33,815 nucleotides of DNA from Acidobacteriaceae bacterium (GTDB lineage Bacteria > Acidobacteriota > Terriglobia > Terriglobales > Acidobacteriaceae): positions 24,120 to 57,934 of the forward strand of contig PKUV01000146.1 of assembly GCA_003131315.1 (NCBI GenBank), given 5' to 3'. The position numbers and the translations under genes were made by a program. Below, one piece after another: positions 3,987 to 22,293 of the stretch. Each line of letters opens with the position of its first letter. Position 1 is the stretch's first letter. Below the pieces are notes generated by a model, which saw only the letters and a program-made list of their open reading frames with translations, searched no databases and was not told where the DNA came from.

Positions 3987-4097
3987 AACCAGACTCCCCG
4001 AAATCCGCTTGAATGCCTAGAAATGCCTCAAACCCGACTGTCCGCCGCCGCTCGACCGCAGGCCGACCGCTGGCCCGCCTTTAACAGCACAGGAGAA

Positions 4098-4124: not shown

Positions 4125-4171
4125 CTTGAATCATGGAGCTAGCGATTGTAGCAGGAGAAAAGCAGTGGTTT

Positions 4172-4236
4172 CGTATCAGGGCATCGCTTTAGCGATGCCG
4201 TAAGTTCGTCGAAATCGATGCCCCTTGAGGGGCTGG
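4172..4236. repeat. Palindromic repeat downstream of glpX, possible terminator
   Basis: Two adjacent palindromes occur here: GGCATCGC-TTTA-GCGATGCC at 4180-4199 and GCCCC-TTGA-GGGGC at 4220-4233. They sit in the 267-nt gap between the sigma operon leader and the glpX stop codon, in glpX transcription order just after the gene. Their form fits the dispersed repeat families of this window. A role in transcript ending or 3'-end protection is possible, but there is no clear U-tract. Confidence 0.55.
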
Positions 4237-4253
4237 CCATCGACCGCAGCCTG

Positions 4254-5288
4254 CTACGAGAACCTGACCTTCACATCCGGCCCTTTATCCAAATGGATGC
4301 TCTCAATAAATCGCACCCGTCCCGTCTTCAAAGTAAGAATCACGGAAGAAGTCCGCGTCCCTTCGCCGAAGAAGCGGACGCCTTTCAGCAGCGCGCCTTC
4401 GGTCACGCCGGTCGCGGCGAAGATCATCTGTTTTCCCGGAGCCAGGTCTTCCGCCTCGTAAATTTTGTTCTTGTCTTTAATCCCCATCTTCGCAATGCGC
4501 TCTTCCAACTCCGGCTTGTCGATCACCAGCCGTCCCTGCATGTATCCGTTGAGGCAGCGGATCGCGGCCGCTGTAATCACGCCTTCCGGGGCGCCGCCCG
4601 ATCCCATGACCACGTGCACTCCGGTTCCGATCACCGCCGCCGCAATGCCCGCCGACAGATCGCCGTCGCCAACCAGCTTGATGCGCGCGCCCGCCTTCCG
4701 AATATCGGCGATCAGCTTCTCGTGCCGCGGACGGTCGAGCACCACCACCACCAGGTCCTCCACGCCGCGATGCAGCCGCCGCGCGATATTTTTCAGGTTG
4801 ACGGCCACCGGAGCGTCCAGTTCCACCGCGTTCTTGCACGATGGCCCCACCACGATTTTTTCCATGTAGCAGTCGGGAGCATGCAGCAATCCGCCTTTTT
4901 CCGAAGCCGCCAGCACCGTGATCGCCCCCGGGGCGCCGGTGGCGCAGAGGTTTGTACCTTCCAGCGGATCGACGGCGATGTCGACGTGAGGAACATCGCG
5001 GCCGTCCGGATACGGGCCGCCCACCTGCTCGCCGATGTAAAGCATCGGCGCGTCGTCGCGCTCGCCCTCGCCGATCACAATCGTGCCGTGCATCGGGACC
5101 GTGTCCATCGTCTTGCGCATGGCCTCGGTGGCCGCCTGGTCACTCAGCGGTCGATCCCCTTGGCCCATGGTGCGCGCCGACTCGATGGCCGCGTTCTCCA
5201 CCACGCGCAAAAATTCCAGCGCCAGATCGCTTTCAATATTTTCCCCGAAATTCTTAGCGTGCGGTTCGGGACGGATTTGGGTTGGCAT
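4254..5288 (-). CDS. glpX: Fructose-1,6-bisphosphatase, class II (GlpX)
   Basis: This enzyme removes the 1-phosphate of fructose 1,6-bisphosphate in gluconeogenesis, in the cytoplasm, using divalent metal. Class II motifs are in order: GEGERDD (73-79), DPLEGT (107-112) with the metal-binding Asp/Glu, and GSGGAPEG (229-236). At 344 aa it is of normal length for the family. The frame is open further upstream to 5498, but the start at 5288 is chosen because AGGAGG lies 5 nt before its ATG and the protein then begins with the family's usual N-terminal region; the upstream extension looks non-coding. Some class II enzymes also hydrolyse sedoheptulose 1,7-bisphosphate, which cannot be decided here. 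It is monocistronic and divergent from the gene at 5501. Confidence 0.95.
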
Positions 5289-5293
5289 CAATG

Positions 5294-5299
5294 CCTCCT
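5294..5299 (-). promoter_or_regulatory. Shine-Dalgarno of glpX that decides its start
   Basis: A full AGGAGG is present on the minus strand 5 nt from the ATG at 5288-5286. It excludes the longer open frame beginning at 5498 as the main start. Confidence 0.8.
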
Positions 5300-5376
5300 G
5301 AATATAAATGCGCCTTGAAATATATTCCCTTCGGAGCAGAGATGGAAGTGCAGGTTCGTGTGGCAAGTTCGTGTGG

Positions 5377-5396
5377 CGCGGACACTCCTGTCCGCG
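5377..5396. repeat. Short palindrome in the glpX / AhpD-like divergent gap
   Basis: The arms CGCGGAC and GTCCGCG flank ACTCCT. It lies in the 212-nt gap between two divergent genes. I recognise it as a common dispersed palindrome in related GC-rich soil genomes; that link is from memory, not from this window, which holds only one copy. Confidence 0.5.
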
Positions 5397-5500
5397 TACT
5401 GTGTGCAGCGAGATGGACCGCCGAGCGTCCTCCGATTTCGCTTTTGCCGCGAGTCCAGAGCGCGCATCTTCTACGGCAAACCGTCTGCTAGTCTTCACTC

Positions 5501-5929
5501 ATGACCAGTGAACTCACGACCACTGAACTAACGACCAAAGACCGCAAAGAACCTACCTATCTCTTCTCCGAGAAGCAGGTTGCTGAAAAAAGTGCCCTCG
5601 CCCGGCATTTTCTCGACAATCGCAACCGTTTGAATGAAAACGTCGACAAAGCCGACAACTTCCTCGTCAAACGCTTCTATAACCTGGATCACAACACCTA
5701 CCTCGAAGGCGCTCTGCCCGCGAAATATAAAGAATTGATGGGGCTGGTTGCCTCCGCCAGTTTGCGTTGTGACGACTGCATTTCCTACCACGTGATCCAG
5801 TCCTATCGCCTCGGTGTGACCCGCGCCGAGCAGGAAGAAGCCATCAACGTGGCGCTGGTGGTAGGCGGCAGCATAGTGATTCCACACATGCGGAGGGCGT
5901 ATGAATTGCTGGGGGAGTTATACCGGTGA
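5501..5929 (+). CDS. Carboxymuconolactone decarboxylase / AhpD-like family protein
   Basis: This 142-aa protein has the AhpD-like fold signature: E78 in KELMGLVAS, then C90-x2-C93 (RCDDC) and H97. In AhpD these residues form the thiol peroxidase centre reduced by a lipoyl partner; in true carboxymuconolactone decarboxylases the cysteine pair is missing. The CxxC therefore favours a redox or alkylhydroperoxidase-like role over aromatic degradation. The first 20 residues are polar and Thr-rich and look unconserved, and no strong ribosome site precedes the ATG, so a slightly later start cannot be ruled out. It converges on the OLD-like gene with a 7-nt gap. No partner peroxiredoxin gene is nearby, so the substrate is unknown. 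Confidence 0.85.
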   Translation: MTSELTTTELTTKDRKEPTYLFSEKQVAEKSALARHFLDNRNRLNENVDKADNFLVKRFYNLDHNTYLEGALPAKYKELMGLVASASLRCDDCISYHVIQSYRLGVTRAEQEEAINVALVVGGSIVIPHMRRAYELLGELYR

Positions 5930-5936
5930 GTAAGCG

Positions 5937-7664
5937 TCAGTCCGGCTGTGCTGCCTCAGCAACTTTCACGATTGCGTCAAGCTTCTCGTGGATCTCCTTG
6001 TCAATTTCGTCGAGAGGGACCAAAAAGGCTAGCTCATAGAAGTTACGCTTGGCCATGAGATTTGGGATCCCCAGTTTCTTGAAGTAATTCTGGAAGAGCG
6101 GTGTCAAGAAATCATCGCTCACTTTTGTACCCGCATCCCATGCGGAGCCCTTGCCCAGCGTCTTGAGGGCCGTTTCCAATTCGGCAATCGATTCTTGCAT
6201 TGCGGCCAGCCGCCGCTGTGCCTCTGCTTCACTGAAGAGAGGTCCAGCGGCAGCATTTGCGCCACTCTGTGCGGCATACGCCTCCAAGGTTCTTGGGGAG
6301 CAGAAGTAGTTCTCAATCTCCCGCTTACGCCAACTCAGACCAGTTGCACCTAGGTTGTCGGGCAGAGGGCGTTCCAACTGATCGAAGATTGCTATCCCTT
6401 TCAGTTGGCCCACTGCTTCGCGGAGACCGTGGAAGTGCTTGAGCACTTCGATTGGTTGGTTCCCGACGTAGTGAACAAATGGGCGAGCGAGACAGTCTTT
6501 GGCGCTCTTGTGGTCCAGTCTCTCGGCGAATGCCCTCAAGACTGCGAGGTCAGTTGATCCTTCCAAATACAATATCCACTTGGTCTGGTCAGCTTGGTAG
6601 TACTGTTCGAAACCGATATCCTCCAATGACTTCATCACTTGACTGCCGCGGTCGGTTATTGCGTGGGGCTTGCCGACAAACGCGATAACGAGATCTCGCC
6701 CGGCTGCTTCGTTAAGCAGCACTTCGCTATGACTCGCCGCAATGACTTGGTTGCCGTTCGTTCTAGCCACGTCTGTCAACAGTTGGTAGATCTGACGTTG
6801 TCGAAGGATTTCCAGATGAGCATCAGGTTCGTCGAGCAGAAGTACCGAATTCGGGTTTGCGAACATATAAGCCAGCAGCAGCAATGTTTGCTGCAGCCCC
6901 CTGCCCGACGATGAGAGGTCGAGCTGGACATCTTCTTGATAGGTCATCTCCAACTCTCCCCTCTCGGGGATGTAGCGCGGGGGATCGAGGGTAGAACCGA
7001 ACAACGTCTTGATGTGTTCGACGAGCTTTTTCCATAGTTCCGGCTTACTCGTGTAGACGTTGTAACAGAGGTTTCTGAGCACGGCAGCGGTCTGGCCTTC
7101 TCCCACGCGTACGTTAATGGCGCCCTGATCCAAACGCGTTTCGTTTGCGGCCAACCCGGACATGGGTGGAAGAAATGCAACCAGCACTCCGGCTGCCTCC
7201 TCAGGTACGACCATCCGCGTGCTGGAGCCGCCGTTGACCCCTCGAAGTGGGCGACAGTAAAACGACTCCTCGTTGGCGTAGTAGAACTCCAGGCCACACT
7301 CCCATGGCTTGTCGTTTGTGACGCCTTCAACGATGATGTCAAAAAAGACATTTTGCGTGTCCTGGCCGGTCTCAGTTTTTCTCACGTCCCTGACGTGGAG
7401 GTTCCTCCACAGAAGGTTGGCGCTGGGGACAGGAACGGCGACGAGATCACGGCGGTTTATCGTGACCCCAGGCCTCTTTTCAGGAAGACCCTTCCCCTTC
7501 CTCCGCTCATTCCACCTGCTGAGCCCGACTTGCCACAAGGCGAGGGCCTGTAGTGCTGATGTTTTCCCGGAGTTGTTCGGGCCGATGAATACGACCGGAT
7601 TGCCGAGATCCACTTCCACATCGCCGAAGCGTTTAAAATTTCGGATCTTAACCTTGGTGAGCAT
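5937..7664 (-). CDS. OLD-like AAA ATPase with C-terminal TOPRIM-type domain
   Basis: This 575-aa protein has an ABC/SMC-like ATPase domain: Walker A GPNNSGKT (28-35), signature-like SSSGRGLQQ (251-259), Walker B LLLDEPDAH (275-283) and switch His in ASHS (310-313). After it comes a TOPRIM-like region with LYLEGSTD (366-372, E369 and D372), then IAIFDQLERP (about 425-433) where OLD nucleases usually have a DxD, and KREIENYF (447-454). OLD-family proteins are ATP-regulated nucleases, and many are phage-defence effectors (as in Gabija GajA). No UvrD-like partner is adjacent, so it looks like a stand-alone class 1 member. Sampled lines are 45-50% GC against 60-68% in neighbours, which suggests horizontal acquisition. 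DNA cleavage is not assured given the altered acidic motif. Confidence 0.85.
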   Translation of the reverse strand: MLTKVKIRNFKRFGDVEVDLGNPVVFIGPNNSGKTSALQALALWQVGLSRWNERRKGKGLPEKRPGVTINRRDLVAVPVPSANLLWRNLHVRDVRKTETGQDTQNVFFDIIVEGVTNDKPWECGLEFYYANEESFYCRPLRGVNGGSSTRMVVPEEAAGVLVAFLPPMSGLAANETRLDQGAINVRVGEGQTAAVLRNLCYNVYTSKPELWKKLVEHIKTLFGSTLDPPRYIPERGELEMTYQEDVQLDLSSSGRGLQQTLLLLAYMFANPNSVLLLDEPDAHLEILRQRQIYQLLTDVARTNGNQVIAASHSEVLLNEAAGRDLVIAFVGKPHAITDRGSQVMKSLEDIGFEQYYQADQTKWILYLEGSTDLAVLRAFAERLDHKSAKDCLARPFVHYVGNQPIEVLKHFHGLREAVGQLKGIAIFDQLERPLPDNLGATGLSWRKREIENYFCSPRTLEAYAAQSGANAAAGPLFSEAEAQRRLAAMQESIAELETALKTLGKGSAWDAGTKVSDDFLTPLFQNYFKKLGIPNLMAKRNFYELAFLVPLDEIDKEIHEKLDAIVKVAEAAQPD

Positions 7665-7797
7665 TTAACCCTCAACGCCATTTCTAAGAGGCATTGTATT
7701 ACTTCTCGGTTAAGCGTCGGACCGCGCTTCCGATACCCCGCGAAAATCTCACTGCGCCTATCGCTGCGGAAGGCACGCCCCCCAACAGCCTCCACCC

Positions 7798-8979
7798 TCA
7801 GAACGCGTCAATCCCGGTCACGCTCGCCCCAATAATCAGCGTGTGAATATCGTGCGTGCCCTCATACGTCTTGACGCTTTCGAGGTTCATAAGATGCCGC
7901 ATGATGGGGTAATCGTCGGCCACGCCGTTTGCTCCCAGAATATCTCGCGATAGCCGGGCACACTCGAGCGCCATCCAGACGTTATTTCTCTTCGCCATCG
8001 AGATGTGCTGGTGCTGCACTTTTCCGGCGTCCTTCAAGCGGCCGACTTGCAGCACGAGTAACTGCGCCTTCGTGATCTCGCTGATCATCCAGGCGAGCTT
8101 CTCCTGCACGAGCTGATGCGAGGCGATGGGCTGATCGCGCCATTGTTTGCGCAGCAGGGAATACTGCAGCGCGCAGTCGTAACACGCCATCGCCGCGCCC
8201 ACCGCACCCCACGCGATTCCGTAGCGCGCCTGGTTCAGGCACATCAGCGGTGACTTCAATCCATCCGACCCCGGCAACAGATTCGACTCGGGGATGCGCA
8301 CATCCTGCAGCGACAAGCCTGACGTCACCGAAGCGCGCAGCGACCACTTCCCATGGATGTCGTCGGCCTTGAATCCAGGACGGTCGGTCTCAACCAAAAA
8401 TCCGCGTACCTTGTCGCCTTCATCTTCGACCTTCGCCCAGATTACCGCTACGTCGGCGATCGTGCCGGAGGTGATCCACATCTTTTCGCCGTTCAGTACA
8501 TACTCTTTGCCGACTTTCTTCGCGCGCGTTCTCATGCCGCCCGGATTCGATCCGAAGTCCGGTTCGGTCAATCCGAAGCAGCCAAGCTTTTCGCCTTTCT
8601 GCATCGCGGGCAGCCAGGTGTTTTTCTGCTCGTCGGTGCCGAAGGTATAAATCGGATACATCACCAGCGCCGACTGCACGCTGACGAACGAGCGCACGCC
8701 GGAATCTCCGCGTTCCAGTTCCTGCGTGACCAGTCCGTATTCGACGTTCGACATGCCGGCGCAGCCGTAGCCGTTCAGCGAGGCGCCAAAGAATCCCAGA
8801 TCGGCCATGGGCTTCACCAGTTCGCGCGGGAATCGGCCGGCACGGTTGCATTCCTCAATGATCGGTACGAGATTGTCTTCGATGAACCTGCGCGCCGTGT
8901 CGCGCACCAGACGTTCGTCGTCATTCAGTAACGTGTCGAAGTCGATAAAGTCCACACCACGAAATTTGATGGCCGGCAT
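7798..8979 (-). CDS. gcdH: Glutaryl-CoA dehydrogenase (acyl-CoA dehydrogenase family)
   Basis: This FAD enzyme converts glutaryl-CoA to crotonyl-CoA and CO2 in lysine, tryptophan and benzoyl-CoA breakdown, passing electrons to ETF. The 393-aa protein has normal family length. GCDH-like features are SVQSALVMYPIYTFG (about 103-117), the flavin-binding segment CFGLTEPDFGSN, WITSG, and the C-terminal KTYEGTHDIH with catalytic base E373. The ending TGIDAF is also typical. Other acyl-CoA dehydrogenases differ at the SVQS and YEGTHDIH sites, so the assignment is fairly specific. A GGGG-TGAG ribosome site precedes the ATG. It is transcribed away from the cytochrome gene across a 194-nt gap that contains a dyad. 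No glutarate-specific neighbours are visible. Confidence 0.9.
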   Translation of the reverse strand: MPAIKFRGVDFIDFDTLLNDDERLVRDTARRFIEDNLVPIIEECNRAGRFPRELVKPMADLGFFGASLNGYGCAGMSNVEYGLVTQELERGDSGVRSFVSVQSALVMYPIYTFGTDEQKNTWLPAMQKGEKLGCFGLTEPDFGSNPGGMRTRAKKVGKEYVLNGEKMWITSGTIADVAVIWAKVEDEGDKVRGFLVETDRPGFKADDIHGKWSLRASVTSGLSLQDVRIPESNLLPGSDGLKSPLMCLNQARYGIAWGAVGAAMACYDCALQYSLLRKQWRDQPIASHQLVQEKLAWMISEITKAQLLVLQVGRLKDAGKVQHQHISMAKRNNVWMALECARLSRDILGANGVADDYPIMRHLMNLESVKTYEGTHDIHTLIIGASVTGIDAF

Positions 8980-9072
8980 TACGTCTCACCCCACAAAGTC
9001 AGCAGACAGAGAATGGGAAACTATTCAAAGTAGCAGAGCGGCGGGGAAGTCAGCAATGCGAAGAAATATTTG

Positions 9073-9099
9073 GTCTCCTAATCTGTTTTTATTAGAGAC
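9073..9099. promoter_or_regulatory. Imperfect dyad between divergent gcdH and the cytochrome gene
   Basis: GTCTCcTAAT and ATTAGAGAC form a 9-bp inverted repeat with one bulged base around CTGTTTTT. It lies about 94 nt upstream of gcdH and 75 nt upstream of the cytochrome start, where an operator could act on either gene. A hairpin role is equally possible. No regulator gene is adjacent. Confidence 0.35.
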
Positions 9100-9173
9100 A
9101 CCGCTTCCCGCAAAGCGATAACCTGTTGCAACCTTGGGGTGCAGGCTCTGATGTGCGCCTGCTGGAATCTGTC

Positions 9174-12089
9174 ATGTCTTCCGCCGGAAATTCTGTAAAT
9201 CGAGTGCTGCCGCCGCTGATCGGCTTCCTTGTCGTATCCGCGATTTACCTGTACGCGTTCCCACAAGCGAATGTCCTGTACGCCGGAGTAGTGTTGCTGC
9301 ACGCCGTTGGCGGCGTCGCGGCTTCAGTCTTGCTGCTGCTCTGGCTGGTGCGATCATGGCGTCAGGGTGGGCCTCTGGTCCGCGTCGGAATCGTTTTCCT
9401 GTTCCTCGGTGCAATCCCAGGACTGGCGCTGATTTACACCGGAACACTGCGCACGGAGTGGCCGCTCGTCTACGTCCATATCGGATTGAGTTTTCTCGGC
9501 GCCGGCCTAATCGCCGCGGCCCGACTAGCGGATCGCGGATGGTTGCCTCGTCATGCTGCCCTTCGCGTTGCAGCCGTGCTCGCTGTGCTGGCGGTGCTGG
9601 CGCCCGTGGCTCGTTATCTGCGCGAAGCTCGCTGGAACCAGCATGGGCGCATTGAAAATCCCGCCCTGCCGCCACTCACCATGGACGGCGAAGGCGATGG
9701 CCCGACGGGTCCATTTTTCCCCAGCTCTGCGCAGGTGTATGGCGGAGAAAAAATTCCCAGCAAGTTCTTCATGGAATCGGAATCCTGCAAGCGCTGTCAC
9801 GAGGATATCTACAACCAGTGGAACAGCTCGGCCCACCATTTTTCCTCGTTCAACAATCAGTGGTATCGCAAGGCGGTCGAGTACATGCAGGACACGATCG
9901 GCACCAAGCCTTCAAAGTGGTGCGGCGGATGCCATGACCCGGCCGTGCTCTACGCCGGCAAGATGGATACGCCCATCAAACAGATCGTGCACACGCCCGA
10001 AGCCCAGGCCGGACTCGGCTGCATGATGTGCCACTCCATCGCCGATGTAAAAAGCACGATGGGCCAGGGCGATTTCTACCTCGAGTATCCCAAGCTGCAC
10101 GAGCTCGCGGCCAGCAAGAATCCACTGGTTCGCGGCCTGCACGACTTCATGATCAAGCTGAATCCGGAGCCGCACCGCCGCGTGTTCCTCAAGCCGTTCA
10201 TGAAGGAACAGACGGCGGAGTTCTGCTCCTCCTGCCACAAGGTGCACCTCGACGCGCCGGTCAATCACTACCGCTGGATTCGCGGTTTCAACGAGTACGA
10301 CAACTGGCAGGCTAGCGGCGTCTCCGGAGAGGGCGCGCGCTCGTTCTACTACCCGGCGAAGCCGCAGCAGTGCGCCGATTGCCACATGCCGCTCGAACCC
10401 TCCAACGATATGGGTAACGTTGCCGGCAAAGTGCACTCCCACCGTTTCCCCGCCGCCAATACCGCGCTGCCCACGGCCAACGAAGATGCCGCGCAGTTGA
10501 AGGCCACCGAAGATTTCCTGACCAGCGGAGCTCTTACGGTGGATATTTTTGCGCTCTCGCCGGCAAGCACCCCACTGAAAGCAGGGGCGGTCACGCAACA
10601 CGAGCTCGCAACCACCTTTGCTGTGGGAGAAGAAGCAGAAGCAAAAATCACGCCCGGCGCCGCCGCTGAGGCTGCTCCCGTCACCGCGCCTGTCACTGCT
10701 CCTCTCAATCGCGTGCAGCCCGCCGTCCGCCGCGGCGACACCGTCCGCGTCGATGTCGTGGTTCGCACCAAGCGCATCGGACATTTCTTTCCCGGCGGCA
10801 CCGTGGACGCCTACGATACCTGGCTCGAACTCAAAGGTGTCGACGACAAAGGCCAGACGATTTTCTGGAGCGGCATGGTCGAGGACAACGGCAAAGGCCC
10901 GGTCGAAAAGGGCGCGCACTTCTATCGCTCGCTCCAGGTGGACGCGCACGGCAATCCGATTAACAAGCGCAACGCCTGGGCCACGCGCGCCGTCGTGTAC
11001 GTGCGGCTGATCCCGCCCGGCGCCGCCGACACGGTGCACTTCCGCATGAAGGTTCCCGAGAAAACGGGCAGCAAAATTACCCTGACTGCGCGGCTCTGCT
11101 ATCGCAAGTTCTCATGGTGGAACACGCAGTTCGCGTTTGCCGGCGAGCGCGACAACAGTCAATCGAAGCCCGGGGTCGCGCCTGGCTCAGTTACGCCCGC
11201 CTCCGTTACAGCCGACTATGACGATACAAAATTTGCGTTTACCGGATTGCTCCACGGAGTTTCCGCGAAGTCGGAGAAAATTCCCGATGTGCCGATCGTT
11301 GCGGTTGCGCAAAACGAAGTAGCCATCGACGTCTTGCCCGCGAACGCGCCGGCCCCGCAGCCGAAAACCCAGCTCGCGAAAGAAGACTGGCAGCGCTGGA
11401 ACGATTACGGCATCGGTCTGCTGCTGCAAGGCGATCTGAAAGCGGCGCAGGCTGCGTTCGAAAAGGTCACCGAGGTCGATCCCCAGAATCCCGATGGCTG
11501 GGTGAACATCGGACGCGCCGCCCTGCAGGAAGGCGACGTTGCCCGCGCCCGCACCGTTCTTGAGAAAGCGCTGGCGCTCAACCCAAAGCTGGCGAGAACA
11601 AATTTCTTCTATGGATCGCTGATGAAGACCGCGGGAGACTACGATCAGGCCGCCGCGCATTTCCAAATCGTACTCGCTCAGTACCCTCGCGACCGCGTGG
11701 CGTTGAACAATCTTGGCCGCGTTCTTTTTCTCGAGCGCAAGTATTCCGACGCAGTGAAAGTCCTGCAGCAGGTCCTCGCCGTCGATCCCGAGGATTTGCA
11801 GGCGCACTACAACCTCATGCTCTGCTACAACGGTCTAGGTGACGAAAAGATCTCCAAAGAGCACCAGGCTCGTTACCTGCGCTTCAAAGCCGACGAAGCT
11901 TCGCAAGCCATCACCGGTCCCTATCGCCAGCTCCATCCCGAAGACAACAATGAACGGCAGAGCATCCACGAGCACACGTCAGTCCCGCTGCCAATCACCA
12001 CGAACCACGTAGGGACGGCCGCCCTCGTCCGTCCAGCCGGGCAAAGCCCGGCAGCGGCCCGCGCCACCACGACCGGGGCCCCCAGGTGA
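9174..12089 (+). CDS. Membrane-anchored five-haem c-type cytochrome with C-terminal TPR domain
   Basis: The 971-aa product starts with about five hydrophobic helices (about 12-31, 35-58, 70-88, 98-115, 131-147). A large exported region follows with five CxxCH haem sites: CKRCH (205-209), CGGCH (250-254), CMMCH (283-287), CSSCH (351-355) and CADCH (400-404). The first fits cytochrome c554-like proteins (CxxCH...W..S.H). After a beta-rich middle region, residues about 737-902 form four or more TPR units. The start at 9174 (ATG) is preferred over an in-frame TTG at 9126 because the membrane segment follows closely. The last 26 residues are encoded by a dispersed repeat. It should take part in electron transfer at the membrane or periplasm; donor and acceptor are unknown. 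Its stop overlaps the next start (TGATG), so it is coupled to the FG-GAP gene. Confidence 0.9.
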   Translation: MSSAGNSVNRVLPPLIGFLVVSAIYLYAFPQANVLYAGVVLLHAVGGVAASVLLLLWLVRSWRQGGPLVRVGIVFLFLGAIPGLALIYTGTLRTEWPLVYVHIGLSFLGAGLIAAARLADRGWLPRHAALRVAAVLAVLAVLAPVARYLREARWNQHGRIENPALPPLTMDGEGDGPTGPFFPSSAQVYGGEKIPSKFFMESESCKRCHEDIYNQWNSSAHHFSSFNNQWYRKAVEYMQDTIGTKPSKWCGGCHDPAVLYAGKMDTPIKQIVHTPEAQAGLGCMMCHSIADVKSTMGQGDFYLEYPKLHELAASKNPLVRGLHDFMIKLNPEPHRRVFLKPFMKEQTAEFCSSCHKVHLDAPVNHYRWIRGFNEYDNWQASGVSGEGARSFYYPAKPQQCADCHMPLEPSNDMGNVAGKVHSHRFPAANTALPTANEDAAQLKATEDFLTSGALTVDIFALSPASTPLKAGAVTQHELATTFAVGEEAEAKITPGAAAEAAPVTAPVTAPLNRVQPAVRRGDTVRVDVVVRTKRIGHFFPGGTVDAYDTWLELKGVDDKGQTIFWSGMVEDNGKGPVEKGAHFYRSLQVDAHGNPINKRNAWATRAVVYVRLIPPGAADTVHFRMKVPEKTGSKITLTARLCYRKFSWWNTQFAFAGERDNSQSKPGVAPGSVTPASVTADYDDTKFAFTGLLHGVSAKSEKIPDVPIVAVAQNEVAIDVLPANAPAPQPKTQLAKEDWQRWNDYGIGLLLQGDLKAAQAAFEKVTEVDPQNPDGWVNIGRAALQEGDVARARTVLEKALALNPKLARTNFFYGSLMKTAGDYDQAAAHFQIVLAQYPRDRVALNNLGRVLFLERKYSDAVKVLQQVLAVDPEDLQAHYNLMLCYNGLGDEKISKEHQARYLRFKADEASQAITGPYRQLHPEDNNERQSIHEHTSVPLPITTNHVGTAALVRPAGQSPAAARATTTGAPR
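12009..12052. repeat. Palindromic repeat forming the 3' end of the cytochrome gene
   Basis: Two stems occur in tandem: GGACGG...CCGTCC (12013-12018 with 12029-12034) and GCCGGGC-AAA-GCCCGGC (12036-12052). The element lies inside the reading frame and encodes part of the last 26 residues (from residue 946), which are Ala/Thr/Pro-rich and unlike the TPR domain before them. Confidence 0.65.
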
Positions 12090-13849
12090 TGCTCTCTTCC
12101 AAAAAACAATCCACTACGGAGACACGGAGACACGGAGAGAAATTCGGTTTTTCTTTTCCGGTTTTTCTCCGTGTCTCCGTGTCTCCGTGGCGGGTGTTGG
12201 GTTTCCTGTTGGTGGCAAGTCTTTTCGGCGCTGCTCAGCACATCACCTTCCGCGACATCACCGCCCAAGCCGGCATCCGCTTCACCCACAACAACGGAGC
12301 CTTCGGAAAAAAATGGCTCCCGGAAACCATGGGCCCCGGCTGCGCGTTCATCGATTACGACAACGACGGCTTTCCCGACATCCTGCTCGTCAACGGACAG
12401 GACTGGCCCGGCCACGCCAAGAGCGGCGCGACCACCTTGAAGCTCTACCACAACAATCATGACGGTACCTTCACCGACGTGACTCGCAAGTCTGGCCTCG
12501 GCATTTCGCTCTTCGGACTCGGCGCGACCGTCGGCGACTATGACAACGACGGCTTCGACGACATTTTCATTACCGCCGTCGGCCAGAGCCATCTCTTCCA
12601 CAACAACGGCAACGGCACTTTCACCGACGCGACCAAGTCCGCGGGACTCTGGGGCCCGAACGAGTTCTCCACCGGCGCCGCCTGGGTCGATTACGATCGC
12701 GACGGCAAACTCGATCTCGTCGTCGCCAACTATGTGCAGTGGTCCGAGCAAACCGACCTCTACTGCACGCTCGATGGCTCGCACAAGTCCTACTGCACGC
12801 CCGAATCGTATAAGGGAACGTCGGGCCGCCTCTGGCATAACCTCGGCAACGGCAAGTTCGAAGATGCCACCCAGAAAGCCGGCCTTTACGATCCAACCTC
12901 AAAGGGTCTCGGTGTCGCCATTCTCGACTACAACAACGACGGCTGGCCCGACATCCTGATCGCCAACGACACTCAACCCAACAAGCTCTACCTGAATAAA
13001 AAGAACGGCGCCTTCGAGGAGCGCGCCGTTTCCGCCGGCATCGCCTTCAGCGAAGATGGCGTTGCCCGCGCCGGCATGGGCGTTGACGCCGCCGATTACG
13101 ACCGCTCCGGCAGCGCCAGTCTGATCATTACAAATTTCTCCAACCAGATGCTCTCGCTCTACCACAACGAAGGCAACGGCCTGTTCGTGGATGAAGCCGC
13201 GCGCTCGGAAGTCGGCCGCGCGACGCTCCTGACGCTCGGCTTCGGCTGCTTTTTCTTCGACTACGATAACGACGGCTGGCAGGACATCCTCATCGCCGAC
13301 GGTCACATCGAAGACCAGATCGAGAGCGTGCAAAAGCGCGTCAGCTACGCCGAGCCGCCGCACCTGTTCCGCAATCTCGCGAACGGCAAGTTTGAGGAAG
13401 TCACAAACAAACTCGGCAGCGCTTTTGGCGCTCCGAAAGTCGCGCGCGGCGCCGCCTACGCCGACATCAATAATGACGGAGCTCTCGACGTCCTGCTCAT
13501 GACCAACGGTGGCCCGCCGCATCTCTACCTGAACCAGGGCGGCACAAACCAAAGCCTGCGCATAAAACTCGTCGGGGCAAAATCGAACCGCGACGGCATC
13601 GGCGCCATCGTTCGAGTGGGCGCCGGGGGCGACAAGCAGTGGCTCACCATGAAGACCGGCTCCAGCTATCTTTCGCAAAGCGAACTAGTGCTGACCTTCG
13701 GCATGGGATCGAAAACCAAAGCCGACATCGTCGAAGTCGACTGGCCCAGCGGGCAGGTGGACAAGCTCTCAAACATTGCGACCGGTCAGACCGTCACGGT
13801 CCAGGAAGCAAAAGGCCAGATCGCCGCGCGGCCGTATGGAAAGAAGTAG
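12089..13849 (+). CDS. Exported seven-repeat FG-GAP/VCBS protein with ASPIC/UnbV domain (CRTAC1-like)
   Basis: This 586-aa protein has a hydrophobic export segment (VLGFLLVASLFGAAQ, about 36-50). Seven propeller-type repeats follow, each with a calcium-loop motif of the DxDxDG form: FIDYDNDGFPD, VGDYDNDGFDD, WVDYDRDGKLD, ILDYNNDGWPD, AADYDRSGSAS (degenerate), FFDYDNDGWQD and YADINNDGALD. The end (about 487-580) is an ASPIC/UnbV domain with LVGAKSNRDGIGA and VDWPSG. Relatives are secreted or surface proteins of unknown biochemical function, thought to use the calcium-stabilised propeller for binding. The gene shares one base with the stop of the cytochrome gene. The first 35 codons contain a perfect hairpin repeat, so the exact start is uncertain; a later in-frame GTG lies at 12194. 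Confidence 0.88.
   Translation: MLSSKKQSTTETRRHGEKFGFSFPVFLRVSVSPWRVLGFLLVASLFGAAQHITFRDITAQAGIRFTHNNGAFGKKWLPETMGPGCAFIDYDNDGFPDILLVNGQDWPGHAKSGATTLKLYHNNHDGTFTDVTRKSGLGISLFGLGATVGDYDNDGFDDIFITAVGQSHLFHNNGNGTFTDATKSAGLWGPNEFSTGAAWVDYDRDGKLDLVVANYVQWSEQTDLYCTLDGSHKSYCTPESYKGTSGRLWHNLGNGKFEDATQKAGLYDPTSKGLGVAILDYNNDGWPDILIANDTQPNKLYLNKKNGAFEERAVSAGIAFSEDGVARAGMGVDAADYDRSGSASLIITNFSNQMLSLYHNEGNGLFVDEAARSEVGRATLLTLGFGCFFFDYDNDGWQDILIADGHIEDQIESVQKRVSYAEPPHLFRNLANGKFEEVTNKLGSAFGAPKVARGAAYADINNDGALDVLLMTNGGPPHLYLNQGGTNQSLRIKLVGAKSNRDGIGAIVRVGAGGDKQWLTMKTGSSYLSQSELVLTFGMGSKTKADIVEVDWPSGQVDKLSNIATGQTVTVQEAKGQIAARPYGKK
12116..12188. repeat. Perfect inverted repeat (CGGAGACA type) inside the 5' end of the FG-GAP gene
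   Basis: A 23-nt arm at 12116-12138, made of tandem ACGGAGAC units, is matched exactly by its reverse complement at 12166-12188 across a 27-nt loop. It lies 27 nt downstream of the ATG and is read as codons for Thr-Arg-Arg-His-Gly on one side and Arg-Val-Ser-Val-Ser-Pro on the other. The RNA stem would form close to the start codon. Confidence 0.85.
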
Positions 13850-13880
13850 GTCTGCGTTCGAGCGCTCCTAATCCAAGATT

Positions 13881-13953
13881 TGTCATCCTGAGCGCAGCGA
13901 AGGACCTGCTTTTTGCCGCGGACAGCAGGTCCTTCGCTGCGCTCAGGATGACA
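13881..13953. repeat. Dispersed hairpin repeat, family A copy 1
   Basis: Perfect 30-nt arms (13881-13910 and 13924-13953), containing TCATCCTGAGCGCAGCGAAG and its complement, surround a 13-nt loop. The repeat lies in the 204-nt gap between two FG-GAP genes. Copies 2 and 3 in this window are at 17676 and 22214. The rest of the gap shows nothing else clear. Confidence 0.9.
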
Positions 13954-14053
13954 ATTCATGAAAAGGGGCATCCGAGCGGTTGTTGTCATTATGCGGAGCC
14001 TGAGCGACCGGACACGCACCCGCCACTCAGATAGAATCATTTCCGAACCCACG

Positions 14054-17000
14054 ATGACCAAGACACTCATCATCGGTCTTATCCCCACCTTTCTTCTCGC
14101 GCTACTCGCCGCGACCGGCGCCGCCACGAATCCCCAGGAGGCGGCCCGCCTCAACAACATCGGCGTCGCTTACATGAACCAGCAACTTTTTGAAAAAGCT
14201 TTGAAGGCGTTCGAAGACGCGGCTGCCAATGATCCGGCGTTAGAGGTGGTCGCCGTCAATCGGGGAGTGGCGCTGCTCAACCTGCAGCGCGGCGAAGAAG
14301 CGAGGATGCTGCTTGAAAAGGCGGCCAAAGACGATCCGAACGACGCCCACTCGTTTTACAGTCTCGGCCTCTACTACAAGAATTCCTCCAATCCCGAAGC
14401 GGCTGTCGCTGACTTCCGTCACGTCACTGAAATCGATCCGAACGACGCCGACTCCTGGTACTTCCTCGGATCGACCCACGCGCAGCTCAAGCAGTTTTCG
14501 GAAGCGGTCGCTGCCTTCGAGCGCGCGCTAAAGATTGACCCGCACCACGCCTCCGCCCAGTTTGGCCTGGCGCGGGCCTACCAGCAATCCGGGCAAGCCG
14601 ACCCCGCCCACGAAGCAATGAAGAAGTTCCAGTACATCACGCAAAACAAGCTGGGCTCGCCGATCAGCCTGGCATACGGCGAGCAGGGAAAGTATTCGCG
14701 CGCGGAAGAGTCGCCGGCGGCGGTGGAGAAAGTGGCGGCGGCAATTGCGGTTAAGTTTGTAGACGTGACGGCGGAATCGGGGATTGTTTCGCGACCTAAA
14801 CCCGCAATCTATTTGACTAAGCCATTTTTCGAGCCCGGCGCCGGTGCATGTTTTCTCGATTATGACAACGATGGCAAGATCGACGTTTTCATCGCCGATA
14901 ATGGTGCGCAGGGCGGGATCGCGCTATACCACAATCTGGGCAGCGGCAGGTTTGAGGACGTAACAAAGCAAGCCGGACTCGATCCCAATGTACATGCGAC
15001 AAGCTGTACCGCAGGCGACTACGACAATGATGGATTTGCCGATCTGGCAGTGAGTCTGAATACCGGGATTATGCTGCTGCACAACGAGAAGAACGGCACA
15101 TTTAGAGATGTCGCCGAGGCGGCAGGGATTCATAACGCGTACGAGCCTAACGTCATCACCGGCTTGACATTTATTGACTACGATCACGACGGCGACCTGG
15201 ACCTTTACGTTACGCGACCTAGCAGTGTTTCCGGCCAGTTCTCAACAGCGCCAATTGCCGCCGCCTACCGAGGGCACAACACGATGTGGCGCAACAATGG
15301 GAATGGCACGTTTACCGACGTCACGGAGGCCACTGGCCTTAAGGGCTGGGGTCTGAGCACGGCCGCAATCGGCACTGATTTCAATAATGATCGTGCCGTC
15401 GACGTGGTAATAACCGGGCGAGAGATTAGCGGCAGTATCGTAGGCAGTATCGCGCACTCTCCGATGCTTTTTGAAAACCCTCGCGAAGGACAATTCTTAC
15501 AACATTCCCCGATTCCATCTCTCGGGTCCACGACGGGTATTGCCGTTCTTGATTTCGATCACGATGGCTGGATGGATTTGGCGTTTACTCTCGACGGTTC
15601 ACCTGGCGTCAGTTTATGGCGCAACGATCACGGCAAAAACTTCGACCAAGTGAAACTGCCGGACACGGATTGGGTCAGGGCCTACGGTGTGGCCGCCATC
15701 GACTACGACAACGACGGCTGGGTCGATCTCGTCGCCGTCGGCGAGACGAAAGACGGCAAGGGCGAAGTCCGCCTCTTTCGCAATCTTGGTCCCGACGGCT
15801 TCAAAGACGTTACCGCCGAAACCGGACTCGACAAAATTCAACTCAAAGAGCCGCGCGCCATCATAGCCGGCGACTACGACAACGACGGCGCCGTAGATCT
15901 GCTGATCACGCAAAACCACGGCCCCGCCGTGCTGCTCCACAACGAAGGCGGAAACAAGAACAACTCGCTGCGCCTCGCGCTCAAGGGCCTGAACGATAAC
16001 AAGAGCGCCATCGGCACAAAAGTTGAAGTCTTCTCGGGCGGCCTGCGGCAGAAGTTCGAAGTGTACGGATCGTCCGGCTACCTCGGACAGAACTCGCCCT
16101 ACCTGACTATCGGTCTCGGACAAGCCAAAGAAGCCGACGTCGTCCGCATGACGTGGCCGACCGGCGTTCTGCAGGATGAAATCGAAGTCGCCGCCAACAA
16201 GCCGCAGACCTTTCTTGAAATGGACCGCCGCGGCAGTTCCTGCCCCACGCTCTTCGCCTGGGACGGCACGCACTACCAACTCGTCGGCGATATGCTCGGC
16301 GCGGGCGTCGTTGGACACTGGGTCGCGGCGGGCGAAGGCAGCGTTGTACCTCAGGGGCTAAAGCCCGTATTCTTCCAGGCGCTGAACGGCACGGCTGAAG
16401 CCGTGCCCTACCCAAAACCGATTTATGAAACCAGTTCTAAGACCGTGCGTAACATCGCGCGTCCTACCGAATCCATCAAGCTCGACCGTGCCTCGCTTCG
16501 CGCAAAAGATGGCAAGCTTAGCTTCCGCTTCATGGAGCCGCTCGAAGAGTCGGTTTACCTCGATCAGGTGCAATTGCTCGCCGTCGATCATCCCGCCGAT
16601 GTCGACGTCGATCCCAACGAATATTTCGCCAGCAATCCGCCTTACCCGCCGTTCAAGGTTGTGTTCAGCCGCGATGCGCGCCCGCCCGCCGGTGCTTGGG
16701 ATGAGCACGGCCACAACCTGCTTCCCGATTTGCTCGCGCATCGCTATTTCGGCGATTTCAAAGTGCTTTCATTCATGGGGTTCACCGAGCCCCACAGCCT
16801 GGAACTTGATCTCGGCGAGCCGTACCGCGGCGGTCCGCTGTGGCTGCTGATGCATGGCGAAATCGAATATTTCTCCGCGACCAGCATGTACGCTGCCGAT
16901 CAAGCGCACCTGCGTCCGTTTGCGCCTTATGTCGAAGCGCAAGTTGCGGGGAACGGCGGAAAAGGAAAATGGGTCCGCGTCGTCGATGACATGGGATTCC

Positions 17001-17653
17001 CCGCGGGCGGCGCGCGCACCATGACGGTCGACCTCACCGGCAAACTTCCGCCGGGTACGCGGCGCATTCGCATCACCACGAATCTGCAAATCTACTGGGA
17101 CAACATCCTGATCAGCCGGACGAGCCAGGATCAAAGCCAGGATCAGAGCGCCCGCCTGACGCCGGTTCCACTTGCTCGCGCCGAACTGAATTTCCACGGA
17201 TTCCCGCTGAAGATCGAAGACCAGCCGCCGGGCAATGTCAAATATATTTACGAAAAGGCCAGCGCCACCGGCCCGTACACGCGGCCCGCCGGCCCGTACA
17301 CGCGCTACGGCGATGTGCGGCCGCTGCTCGACTCGCTCGACGATAAGTTTGTCGTCTTTGGATCGGGCGATGAAGTGGCGCTCGATTTCGATCCGGCGAA
17401 GTTGCCCGCCTTGCCGCGCGGCTGGGTGCGCGACTATTTCTTCATTGCCAACGGATACGAAAAAGACATGGACTTCTACGCCTACCGCGGCGATACGGTT
17501 GACCCGCTGCCATTCCGCGACATGCGCAGCTATCCGTATCCCGGCCAATCTTTCCCCTCCGATGCCGAGCACCTGAACTACTTGCTCGAATACAACACCA
17601 GGTTCATGTCGGGGAATGAGGCGAGCGGATATTCCTTTCAGTACCCCAAGTAA
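14054..17653 (+). CDS. Large exported TPR / FG-GAP / ASPIC-UnbV protein with uncharacterised C-terminal region
   Basis: The 1199-aa product begins with a signal peptide (MTKTLIIGL..., about 1-24); the frame extends upstream to 13958, but the ATG at 14054 gives the export signal. Order of parts: TPR units (about 24-215), seven FG-GAP repeats (about 235-635, with FLDYDNDGKID, AGDYDNDGFAD, FIDYDHDGDLD, GTDFNNDRAVD, VLDFDHDGWMD, AIDYDNDGWVD, AGDYDNDGAVD), an ASPIC/UnbV domain (about 637-720) and about 475 further residues. That last part starts CPTLFAWDGTHYQLVGDM, contains LLAVDHPADVDVDPNEYF, and matches no family I can name. A dispersed repeat is inserted in frame at about 766-786. Codon use and GC change sharply in the first two thirds of the propeller. 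It is probably a surface or periplasmic binding or scaffold protein. Confidence 0.88.
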   Translation: MTKTLIIGLIPTFLLALLAATGAATNPQEAARLNNIGVAYMNQQLFEKALKAFEDAAANDPALEVVAVNRGVALLNLQRGEEARMLLEKAAKDDPNDAHSFYSLGLYYKNSSNPEAAVADFRHVTEIDPNDADSWYFLGSTHAQLKQFSEAVAAFERALKIDPHHASAQFGLARAYQQSGQADPAHEAMKKFQYITQNKLGSPISLAYGEQGKYSRAEESPAAVEKVAAAIAVKFVDVTAESGIVSRPKPAIYLTKPFFEPGAGACFLDYDNDGKIDVFIADNGAQGGIALYHNLGSGRFEDVTKQAGLDPNVHATSCTAGDYDNDGFADLAVSLNTGIMLLHNEKNGTFRDVAEAAGIHNAYEPNVITGLTFIDYDHDGDLDLYVTRPSSVSGQFSTAPIAAAYRGHNTMWRNNGNGTFTDVTEATGLKGWGLSTAAIGTDFNNDRAVDVVITGREISGSIVGSIAHSPMLFENPREGQFLQHSPIPSLGSTTGIAVLDFDHDGWMDLAFTLDGSPGVSLWRNDHGKNFDQVKLPDTDWVRAYGVAAIDYDNDGWVDLVAVGETKDGKGEVRLFRNLGPDGFKDVTAETGLDKIQLKEPRAIIAGDYDNDGAVDLLITQNHGPAVLLHNEGGNKNNSLRLALKGLNDNKSAIGTKVEVFSGGLRQKFEVYGSSGYLGQNSPYLTIGLGQAKEADVVRMTWPTGVLQDEIEVAANKPQTFLEMDRRGSSCPTLFAWDGTHYQLVGDMLGAGVVGHWVAAGEGSVVPQGLKPVFFQALNGTAEAVPYPKPIYETSSKTVRNIARPTESIKLDRASLRAKDGKLSFRFMEPLEESVYLDQVQLLAVDHPADVDVDPNEYFASNPPYPPFKVVFSRDARPPAGAWDEHGHNLLPDLLAHRYFGDFKVLSFMGFTEPHSLELDLGEPYRGGPLWLLMHGEIEYFSATSMYAADQAHLRPFAPYVEAQVAGNGGKGKWVRVVDDMGFPAGGARTMTVDLTGKLPPGTRRIRITTNLQIYWDNILISRTSQDQSQDQSARLTPVPLARAELNFHGFPLKIEDQPPGNVKYIYEKASATGPYTRPAGPYTRYGDVRPLLDSLDDKFVVFGSGDEVALDFDPAKLPALPRGWVRDYFFIANGYEKDMDFYAYRGDTVDPLPFRDMRSYPYPGQSFPSDAEHLNYLLEYNTRFMSGNEASGYSFQYPK
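16346..16411 (+). repeat. Dispersed repeat inserted in frame in the 1199-aa protein gene
   Basis: The segment holds CCTCAGGGGCTAAAGCCC (16349-16366) and CGGCTGAAGCCGTGCCC (16392-16408), the two halves of a repeat also found in non-coding DNA at 25121-25186. Here it is read without stop codons as QGLKPVFFQALNGTAEAVPY. Confidence 0.85.
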
Positions 17654-17675
17654 TTAACTTTTCATCGGTGATAAC

Positions 17676-17755
17676 TGTCATCCTGAGCGAAGCGAAGGAC
17701 CTGCTTTCTTTTCAGTGCAAGAGACAGCAGGTCCTTCGCTTCGCTCAGGATGACA
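17676..17755. repeat. Dispersed hairpin repeat, family A copy 2
   Basis: Perfect 30-nt arms (17676-17705 and 17726-17755) enclose a 20-nt loop. It lies between two FG-GAP genes, 22 nt after the stop of the first. The frame of the following gene is open through it, but the signal peptide begins later, at 17803. Confidence 0.9.
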
Positions 17756-17802
17756 AAGTTTGGCGGTGTATGGCGTCCCGGCCGGCGCTACAATCACTCT
17801 GC

Positions 17803-19593
17803 ATGCGGGCCGGCCAGACCACCATTTTGTTAATCGCCTTCACCGGCCTGCTGTCAGCGCAGACCGAGACACAAGGGCCGATGGGCCCGCCTGCGAAAAT
17901 TCCTCCCGCGCGTATTGAAAAGAAATCGACGGCGCCCAAACTCACCGCCCCCGTTCCAATCTTTCGCGACATTGCAGCCCAGGCTGGACTGACCGCTTCC
18001 CACATCTCCTCGCGCGAAAAATACTACGTTATCGAATCGATGAGCGGCGGCGTGGGTCTGTTCGACTGCGATAACGATGGCAAACTCGACATCGTGATGG
18101 TGAATGGTTCGAGTGTCGATCGCTATAAGCAGGGCGGCGATCTTCTCGTCACACTCTGGCATCAGGATGCCGGCCTCAAGTTCACCGACATCACCGAGAA
18201 AGCCGGACTCACGCGCAAAGGTTGGGGCATGGGCGTCGCCGTCGCCGACTTCGACAACGACGGCAACCTCGATCTCTTCGTGACCGGCTATGGCGGCAAC
18301 GCGCTTTATCGCAACAAGGGCAATTGCACTTTCGAAGATGTGACCGACAAGGCTGGAGTGCGTGGAGGCGGCTTCTCCACGGGCGCGGCCTGGGCAGACT
18401 ACGACCGCGATGGAAACGTCGATTTGTTCGTCTCACGATATGTGCACGTGGACATGAATGACTTGCCCGCTTTCGGCTCGACCAAGTTCTGCCAGTTCAA
18501 AGGGGCGCCGGTGCAATGCGGACCGTGGGGCATGGAGGGGGAAACCGATCTGCTCTACCACAACCGCGGCGACGGCACGTTTGAAGAAGTCTCGAGAAAG
18601 GCTGGCGTTGACGATCCCGAAAAATACTACGGACTGGGCGTGACCTGGGGCGACTATGACAACGACGGCTGGCCCGATCTGTTCGTCGCCGATGACGCCA
18701 CTCCCAATCATCTCTATCGCAACAATCACAACGGCACGTTCACTGACGAAGCCATGGTCGGCGGCATCGCGCTGAACAGTGAAGGGCAGGCGCTCGGCTC
18801 CATGGGCGTGACCTGGGGCGACTACGATCACAGCGGACGCCTCTCGATGTTCGTGACCGAATTTGCCGACCAGCCCAACACGCTTTATCGCAACCAGGGG
18901 CCGCGAGGATTCGAAGATGTCGCTATGCAATCGCATCTCGGCCAGCCCAGCTTGCCGTTCCTCGGCTGGGGCGCGACGTTTTTCGATATGGACAATGACG
19001 GCTGGCTCGATCTGTTCGTGGCCTGCGGACACGTCTATCCGCAAATGGACACGGTGAAGGGAAGCGCCGCCTACGCCGAGCCGATGCTGTTGCATCGTAA
19101 CTTGCGCAACGGAACGTTCGAAGAAGTTTCGAAGTCCGCGGGCCTGGCGGATATGCCGCTGAAATCCCGGCGGGGCGCCGCTTTCGGTGACATCGCCAAC
19201 AACGGCAACATCGACATCGTTGTACTCAACGTCGGTGAGCCGCCGTCGCTACTGCTCAACACCAATAAAATCCCGAACCACCGTGTGCTCTTTCATCTGG
19301 CCGGAACAAAAAGCAACCGCGCCGCGATCGGTGCGCGCGTCACTATTCAAGCCGGAGGAGTGACGCAGTTCGACGAAGTGCGTGGCGGTGGCAGTTATCT
19401 TTCGCAGAACGATCTGCGGCTTCATTTCGGCTTGGGATCGGCGACAAAAATCGACTCGGTTGAAGTGCGCTGGCCAACCGGAAAGACGGAAAGCTTCAAA
19501 GACGTGGCTGCGGACAAGATCTACGCCATCGTGGAAGGACACGGAATCCAAGACTCCGTGCCCTTCAGCGATCTCCCCGCTCACTTGCCATAA
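17803..19593 (+). CDS. Exported seven-repeat FG-GAP/VCBS protein with ASPIC/UnbV domain (third of cluster)
   Basis: The 596-aa product starts at an ATG giving a signal peptide (MRAGQTTILLIAFTGLLSAQ). The in-frame ATG at 17770 is an alternative, and the still longer frame runs through a hairpin repeat and is rejected. After a Pro/Lys-rich linker come seven calcium-loop repeats: LFDCDNDGKLD, VADFDNDGNLD, WADYDRDGNVD, WGDYDNDGWPD, WGDYDHSGRLS (degenerate), FFDMDNDGWLD and FGDIANNGNID. The C-terminal ASPIC/UnbV domain (about 500-590) has LAGTKSNRAAIGA and VRWPTG. Architecture is the same as the protein at 12089, down to the altered fifth repeat. It should act outside the cytoplasm; no catalytic residues are recognisable. 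Its end overlaps the convergent deacetylase gene by 13 nt. Confidence 0.88.
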   Translation: MRAGQTTILLIAFTGLLSAQTETQGPMGPPAKIPPARIEKKSTAPKLTAPVPIFRDIAAQAGLTASHISSREKYYVIESMSGGVGLFDCDNDGKLDIVMVNGSSVDRYKQGGDLLVTLWHQDAGLKFTDITEKAGLTRKGWGMGVAVADFDNDGNLDLFVTGYGGNALYRNKGNCTFEDVTDKAGVRGGGFSTGAAWADYDRDGNVDLFVSRYVHVDMNDLPAFGSTKFCQFKGAPVQCGPWGMEGETDLLYHNRGDGTFEEVSRKAGVDDPEKYYGLGVTWGDYDNDGWPDLFVADDATPNHLYRNNHNGTFTDEAMVGGIALNSEGQALGSMGVTWGDYDHSGRLSMFVTEFADQPNTLYRNQGPRGFEDVAMQSHLGQPSLPFLGWGATFFDMDNDGWLDLFVACGHVYPQMDTVKGSAAYAEPMLLHRNLRNGTFEEVSKSAGLADMPLKSRRGAAFGDIANNGNIDIVVLNVGEPPSLLLNTNKIPNHRVLFHLAGTKSNRAAIGARVTIQAGGVTQFDEVRGGGSYLSQNDLRLHFGLGSATKIDSVEVRWPTGKTESFKDVAADKIYAIVEGHGIQDSVPFSDLPAHLP

Positions 19594-22213: not shown

Positions 22214-22293
22214 TGTCATCCTGAGCGAAGCGAAGGATCTGGTTTCTTGTCAGTGCATAAGACAGCAGGTCCTTCGCTTCGCTCAGGATGACA
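22214..22293. repeat. Dispersed hairpin repeat, family A copy 3
   Basis: The arms 22214-22243 and 22264-22293 match copies 1 and 2, but the left arm has two changes (AAGGATCTGGT for AAGGACCTGCT). It fills most of the 102-nt gap between the convergent permease and GH2 genes, where it may serve as a two-way terminator. Confidence 0.88.

Follow-up and report, generated by a model that had tools for sequence, protein, structure and literature searches.

A conserved pair of cytochrome and CRTAC1-like genes in Acidobacteriota, a candidate quinone-linked redox module

Which genes belong together in a run that combines a multihaem cytochrome with several CRTAC1-like propeller proteins, and what could they do? 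The question is raised by a stretch of 33,815 nucleotides (the window; contig PKUV01000146.1, positions 24,120 to 57,934) from the genome of an Acidobacteriaceae bacterium (GCA_003131315.1; 6.0 Mb, 194 contigs). Four same-strand open reading frames (ORFs) encode, in order, a cytochrome, an FG-GAP/ASPIC protein, a giant protein with tetratricopeptide repeats (TPR), FG-GAP repeats and an ASPIC domain, and a second FG-GAP/ASPIC protein. The conserved unit is the cytochrome and the ASPIC/UnbV protein directly after it, a partnership with good support; the giant is often present as an accessory, and the last gene is optional. For the pair we favour, with slightly better than even confidence, the role of a quinone-linked, periplasm-facing electron-transfer module of the inner membrane, in which a dedicated CRTAC1 propeller would be the docking or substrate subunit. 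The genes are as follows.

9174..12089, + strand: gene 1, membrane pentahaem cytochrome with C-terminal TPR (ATG 9174; the ORF is also open from TTG 9126)
12089..13849, + strand: gene 2, partner CRTAC1-like propeller, FG-GAP and UnbV_ASPIC (ORF from 12086, ATG 12089)
13595-13798, + strand: UnbV_ASPIC domain of the gene 2 partner
14054..17653, + strand: gene 3, TPR/FG-GAP/ASPIC giant, frequent accessory gene (ORF open from 13958; ATG 14054 likely)
17770..19593, + strand: gene 4, second stand-alone ASPIC protein, optional neighbour (ORF open from 17668; ATG 17770 likely)

The starts of the giant and of gene 4 are as we read them. The original prediction, made from the sequence of the window, had joined all four genes into one extracytoplasmic system. 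Its description of four consecutive same-strand genes headed by a five-haem membrane cytochrome with TPR agrees with the ORFs, the CxxCH count and Pfam. The overlap that it reported for the first pair is indeed TGATG, at 12087-12091 (TGA 12087-12089, ATG 12089-12091), and placement outside the cytoplasm is supported.

The cytochrome was searched for across the phylum (297 genomes, with matches, some of them weak, in 135), and 137 loci, all of this one phylum, were analysed: 101 of the window type (W), 16 of the C type and 20 of the T type. The near W loci are the best 80 of 446 relatives from a contig scan; these closest relatives are by name Acidobacteriaceae and metagenome-assembled genomes of Terriglobia. 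Twenty distant W loci, 15 C loci (besides L008, which lies in the source genome) and 20 T loci were hand-picked among the matches listed. The T set was selected by match range and is paraphyletic. A partner was counted if an ASPIC/FG-GAP ORF starts at most 1 kb downstream on the same strand, given at least 600 bases of room.

Such a partner follows the cytochrome in 89 of the 94 W loci with room and in 13 of 16 C loci; counting L120 and L128, where it lies in overlong ORFs, the C figure is 15 of 16. As a control, 29 of 790 other genes of the W, C and T loci have an ORF of this kind downstream. The original prediction was to fall if the neighbourhood were confined to close relatives, and the linkage of cytochrome and ASPIC is kept well beyond them. 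Among the W partners, 23 start at an offset of -4 from the cytochrome stop, 26 at -1 and 10 at 0, so that the stop is overlapped by 1 or 4 bases in 49 loci. At the 20 distant W loci the sole non-cytochrome family present in more than half is ASPIC/giant (16/20), the next cluster reaching 8/20. A stand-alone ASPIC gene also lies just upstream of the cytochrome in 9/101 W loci (L051, L078, L081, L083, L085-L088, L142). Among the T loci whose cytochrome has no membrane bundle, L158 and L163 have a downstream partner and L169-L173 do not; a T-like gene of Granulicella has an annotated CRTAC1 gene directly upstream. The other two window genes are less constant. Among W loci with room, the giant comes after the core pair in 40/50 near and 5/17 distant ones. 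For a gene-4-like ASPIC gene, which is upstream in some others, the figure is just 8/45 near loci with room, and the claim of a single four-gene system is not upheld.

The trees of the two proteins match. They drew on part of the W set, namely 31 of the 101 cytochromes and 27 partners. In the ASPIC tree the C partners form one clade (15/15, support 100/100), as do the T partners (10/10, 98/90), and the 27 W partners share a clade (100/100) with the T partners and two non-partners. One of these two is the source genome's own ASPIC protein of locus L007, encoded after a gene that by eye is response-regulator-like. The cytochrome tree contains W (31/31 used) and C (16/16) clades, with T paraphyletic. 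Cytochrome and partner distances correlate with r of 0.69 for 21 chosen W loci, 0.93 for 15 C loci and 0.92 for 10 T loci; values as high were obtained in 0 of 500 permutations.

The gene 1 product has five N-terminal hydrophobic segments, five CxxCH motifs and C-terminal TPRs; its predicted haems are one of the b type and five of the c type. Its regions, with residues counted from 9126, are listed below; AF2 stands for AlphaFold2.

9195..9611, + strand: five hydrophobic segments, residues 24-162 (hydropathy and alignment; AF2 helices)
9786..10385, + strand: five CxxCH haem c motifs, residues 221, 266, 299, 367, 416 (motif and alignment, PF13435)
10713..11135, + strand: beta-rich region, residues ~530-670, with invariant His553 and YRK 659-661 (conservation, AF2 strands)
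11394..11915, + strand: TPR region, residues 757-930 (Pfam, alignment columns)

The multihaem part matches Cytochrome_C554 (PF13435) with 32.2 bits, above the cut-off of 20.8. The best solved relative by sequence is the pentahaem cytochrome c552 5ze8 (profile E 1.8e-4, ~90 positions). Compared with the cytochrome model by VIA, 5ze8 gives Z 9.0 and a root-mean-square deviation (rmsd) of 5.6 over 224 aligned positions, the haem part of the model being of low confidence. The only distal-histidine candidates universal in the aligned W, C and membrane T rows are His237, His350, His439 and His553. There are five haems, and thus one of them may be without a histidine ligand. The AF2 fold outside the membrane bundle was of poor quality and was set aside. 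The beta-rich region returned many beta-sandwich VIA rows at Z 7-8. The TPR columns are filled in 95/101 W, 20/20 T and 0/16 C rows. TPR is thus a recurring element that shifts between partners, sitting on the cytochrome in W and T loci. In C loci it is on the partner (L008) or on a third TPR/FG-GAP gene (L123, L124 and L130 by Pfam; similar genes in L127 and L131 by phmmer).

The membrane bundle was modelled by AF2 with a block mean predicted local distance difference test (pLDDT) of ~82 over the first 150 residues. His59 and His118 are retained in 98% of the 101 W rows, and they are the putative ligands of one b haem; the predicted topology would place them on the periplasmic side. All C and membrane T rows (29/29) have four invariant transmembrane histidines, arranged as H-x17-H in the second helix and H-x13-H in the fourth. 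When a profile built from the C and T bundles was run against 7,585 ORFs, the only ORFs outside the cytochromes that it matched were two stand-alone proteins of the DUF4405 type, from Shinella and Nitratiruptor (E 1.3e-7 and 1.6e-7). The four histidines align with those of the two stand-alone proteins, in both of which Pfam recognises DUF4405, the Shinella match being under its cut-off. One report describes a six-helix DUF4405 protein that binds haem b in vitro (PMC11334425). A VIA row for the window bundle (5oc0; Z 10.9, rmsd 3.7, 125 aligned) was not used, as helical bundles can reach this range by arrangement alone.

In genes 2-4, UnbV_ASPIC (PF07593) follows FG-GAP repeats and scores above its cut-off, which places all three products in the CRTAC1/ASPIC-UnbV family. 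Pfam finds six FG-GAP_3 stretches in gene 2, six in gene 3 and five in gene 4. Genes 2 and 4 had been described as seven-repeat proteins of near-identical architecture. They do share FG-GAP_3 and UnbV_ASPIC; seven repeats are not borne out by the Pfam counts, and near-identity is too strong, because the two sit in different parts of the ASPIC tree. The gene 2 partner matches human CRTAC1 (9etn) at a phmmer E of 3.7e-21. Partner ASPIC proteins retain the aspartates of the predicted calcium loops. A residue survey, covering all propeller rows but L016, the window giant and L157_np1, revealed no cluster of cysteines and histidines common to W, T and C partners. W219, K273 and H407 are invariant in W and T partners, with no explained role. 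By eye, the inspected N-termini of W partners resemble Sec signal peptides, and a few contain lipoboxes; since 7/91 fit a crude lipobox pattern, only a minority of W partners seem to be lipoproteins. Where the start of a C partner is plausible, its N-terminus by eye resembles an uncleaved anchor.

In the mechanism that we propose, the cytochrome would consist of a bundle of the DUF4405 cytochrome b type and a pentahaem c domain with relatives among the c552/c554 cytochromes. Electrons would be exchanged with the quinone pool through the b haem and would then travel along the c haems. The propeller, made from the next, usually overlapping gene, would be the dedicated partner of the cytochrome and would dock on its haem/TPR part, as a substrate-facing or scaffold subunit. 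A docking, substrate-facing or scaffold role is most likely given the predicted calcium-binding loops and the absence of a common Cys/His cluster from the rows surveyed. The TPR/FG-GAP giant would be an accessory of this assembly.

The substrate was sought in other gene contexts. The source genome has one clear paralogue of the cytochrome (30-33% identity in two pieces; 32% pairwise), which is of the C type and lies at L008. There is an overlap of 10 bp between its gene and the start of one for an ASPIC protein with C-terminal TPR. The first haem motif of the paralogue is CX4CH; in all C rows (16/16) there are four CxxCH and one CX4CH. Positions 27-8663 of L008 hold a group related to nitric oxide (NO): a NorB-type NO reductase, the repair protein RIC, a Crp/Fnr-like regulator and a radical SAM protein, TIGR04053. 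An NnrS-like gene there was named by eye and has no NCBIfam match. A Pfam scan of 67 of the 89 proteins neighbouring C-type cytochromes found no family in more than 4/67, i.e. no recurring clue to the substrate. At the C-type locus L133, an operon-like run (433-10876) encodes MoaA, two PhsA-like molybdoproteins, an Fe-S protein, a TorD-like chaperone and a rhodanese; no ASPIC gene was found within the stretch examined, and the cytochrome is a long branch in the tree. This molybdoenzyme context supports a general quinone-linked role of the cytochrome.

More distant relatives occur on plasmids in other phyla. Six records were found and four places examined (H1, H2, H5, H8), a second Nitratiruptor, a second Shinella and Aeromonas being left out. 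On plasmids of two phyla, from Nitratiruptor and Shinella, the order is imelysin, DUF4405-type protein, pentahaem cytochrome, FTR1 (L174, 5407-10357; L175, 5242-10713). The pentahaem cytochromes are homologous to that of the window (E 4e-61 and 2e-55), and the best solved sequence relative of the Shinella protein is likewise 5ze8. The DUF4405-type and pentahaem genes are separate there and stand in the order of the fused parts, and therefore the fused cytochrome has a split-gene counterpart. This gene order is possibly a cytochrome-linked iron-uptake system. Relatives have other neighbours, a molybdoenzyme run in one case and FTR1 with imelysin in the other, which suggests that the cytochrome works as a general quinone-linked module, with the substrate depending on the partner. 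As to direction, the NO-reductase and PhsA-like contexts of two C-type loci slightly favour reduction of a substrate in the periplasm. A broader reading, which we put forward tentatively and consider more doubtful than the module itself, is that bacterial CRTAC1/ASPIC-UnbV propellers, at least of the clades considered here, work as dedicated subunits within multihaem redox complexes of the periplasm. A single DUF4405-type and pentahaem module would then serve repeatedly, with CRTAC1, a molybdoenzyme or an iron permease as its exchangeable partner.

A number of observations weigh against the quinone-linked module. The pairing has gaps: a downstream partner is present in just 10/19 T loci (L171 has one 29 bp upstream), and among the W loci two sister pairs, L135/L137 and L141/L144, are without it, while L064 has the gene on the other strand. 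Near W loci have other neighbours in common too, in up to 42/81, and the match of the trees owes part to shared species history. The NO context hardly recurs, with one RIC-like gene in L119 and one Crp-like gene in L128. W partners have in common two cysteines, C227 and C237, likewise of unexplained role and mostly absent from T and C partners. In the cytochrome model 342 of all 725 residues have pLDDT <50; given its poor haem part, no haem ligands were assigned from the structure. W rows retain just the first histidine of each pair, the other two being present in 2% and 5%, and so lack the four-histidine pattern of DUF4405. The window bundle has no Pfam match at E 1. In the same ORF search the W bundle profile found no DUF4405-type protein; it reaches four T rows and one C row, and the C and T profile reaches just 4/101 W rows at E 0.001. 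Since the W profile misses the DUF4405-type proteins and the two kinds of bundle barely match each other, the link to DUF4405 goes via relatives.

Other explanations of the pair have to be considered. The propeller and TPR proteins may be assembly or maturation factors that serve haem loading, folding or membrane delivery of the cytochrome and stay outside the working complex. This would fit the absence of a Cys/His cluster common to all partner types and the two W clades that keep the cytochrome without a propeller gene; TPR is, moreover, common in chaperone-like factors. However, the pentahaem relatives beside FTR1 or the molybdoenzyme have no ASPIC gene annotated or detected in the stretches examined, and therefore haem maturation there does not need ASPIC. 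Every cytochrome subfamily, moreover, keeps its own partner clade, and we consider a maturation role unlikely. Somewhat less likely still is a role in metal redox, with the propeller binding iron or another metal for the cytochrome to oxidise or reduce, a role that the FTR1/imelysin version may have. The gene order of the distant homologues in Nitratiruptor and Shinella speaks for it, as does the published link of imelysins to iron uptake (PMC3143127). On the other hand, FTR1 and imelysin homologues (phmmer, E 1e-3) occur only in L174 and L175, with none among the ORFs of the 137 loci analysed or of L001-L007.

In a surface version of the original prediction, propellers on the outside of the cell would hold a polymer or glycan that is oxidised or reduced by way of the haems. 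Other ASPIC genes of the genome do adjoin genes that by eye are TonB-receptor-like, and the C-terminus of the giant resembles CBM/discoidin-like sandwiches. However, the core pair looks bound to the inner membrane: a surface site is unlikely for it, because the bundle precedes the haems and the C partners have anchor-like N-termini. Neighbours beyond ASPIC and the giant are not kept at a distance, and in the window proteins that were scanned Pfam recognised neither TonB receptors nor porins. Surface capture thus appears improbable. Neutral synteny, with the genes together by inheritance alone, is suggested by the restriction of W, C and T loci to one phylum and by the further neighbours that near loci share. 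It is very improbable, since distant loci mostly lose the other neighbours yet keep the pair, stop-start overlaps persist and two separate ASPIC clades show the same pairing; at the same distance, the other neighbours were not seen to be equally conserved.

The remaining features of the window lie mainly in and between genes 2-4.

16667..17134, + strand: predicted beta-sandwich in the giant's C-terminus, discoidin/CBM32/CBM35-like (AF2 predicted template modelling score 0.75; best VIA rows Z 8-9)
12112..12191, no strand: palindromic dispersed repeat within the signal-peptide coding region of gene 2
13882..13952, no strand: palindromic dispersed repeat in the spacer before the giant
17677..17754, no strand: palindromic dispersed repeat before, or at the 5' end of, the gene 4 ORF

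The giant consists of TPR, FG-GAP_3, UnbV_ASPIC and a long C-terminus that has no Pfam match at E 0.001. Repeats of the GTCATCCTGAGCG type occur at 13882-13952, 17677-17754 and 22215-22292, and across the genome their core pattern is matched exactly 80 times forward and 78 times in reverse, counting both arms. The CTCCGTGTCTCCGTG palindrome at 12112-12191 provides part of the signal-peptide sequence of gene 2. Its 17-base core has 2 + 2 exact matches in the genome, and the partners of L021 and L027 have similar residues at this position. As palindromic repeats lie in the spacers 13850-13957 and 17654-17770, co-transcription of all four genes is not established. A promoter scan of the window found 3 sites against 2.9 expected; 23 terminator-like sites, against 12.9 expected (standard deviation 4.0), are given no interpretation. 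Gene 4 is followed by a YdjC-like gene on the opposite strand. There are 13 ASPIC/UnbV hits in the source genome. The ASPIC genes of L001, L003 and L005 adjoin large genes that by eye are TonB-dependent-receptor-like, with carboxypeptidase-regulatory N-termini; TPR genes are also present in L003 and L005.

With an ASPIC/UnbV protein tied to a membrane cytochrome in a conserved two-gene unit, the function of these proteins in bacteria becomes a testable question, and Acidobacteriota gain a candidate redox module. If the reading of one module reused with interchangeable partners is true, it would give CRTAC1-like proteins their first assigned bacterial role. In the parts of the open-licence PMC literature that were searched, no bacterial function is assigned to ASPIC/UnbV proteins and no description of the cytochrome-ASPIC pair was found. 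An ASPIC/UnbV paralogue appears in tables of a 2011 Solibacter paper (PMC3174227). The nearest description found is that of non-anammox clusters like those of hydrazine synthase (HZS), where a CRTAC1 family gene is flanked by homologues of HZS subunits (PMC12758564).

In those clusters, as here, haem proteins, with C554 domains in clade I, are encoded beside a CRTAC1-family gene. However, they hold homologues of HZS alpha and of fused beta-gamma, whereas the window encodes a membrane cytochrome, and none of the four proteins matches an HZS family in Pfam at E 0.001. Molybdopterin oxidoreductases and ApbE-type genes were likewise not matched by Pfam among the window proteins scanned. DUF4405 cytochromes b (PF14358) resemble the sister subfamilies in their four transmembrane histidines and profile match, and separate DUF4405-type and pentahaem genes occur in the order of the parts fused here. 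The window bundle differs in being fused to five c haems, in having two of the four histidines and in having no Pfam match; it has five hydrophobic segments, whereas the protein of PMC11334425 is described with six helices. The pentahaem c552 of Thermochromatium tepidum (5ze8) and Cytochrome_C554 likewise have five haem motifs, and compared with 5ze8 the window cytochrome adds the membrane bundle and TPR. Human CRTAC1 has the same combination of FG-GAP propeller and UnbV_ASPIC, whereas the bacterial protein is linked by gene order to one cytochrome.

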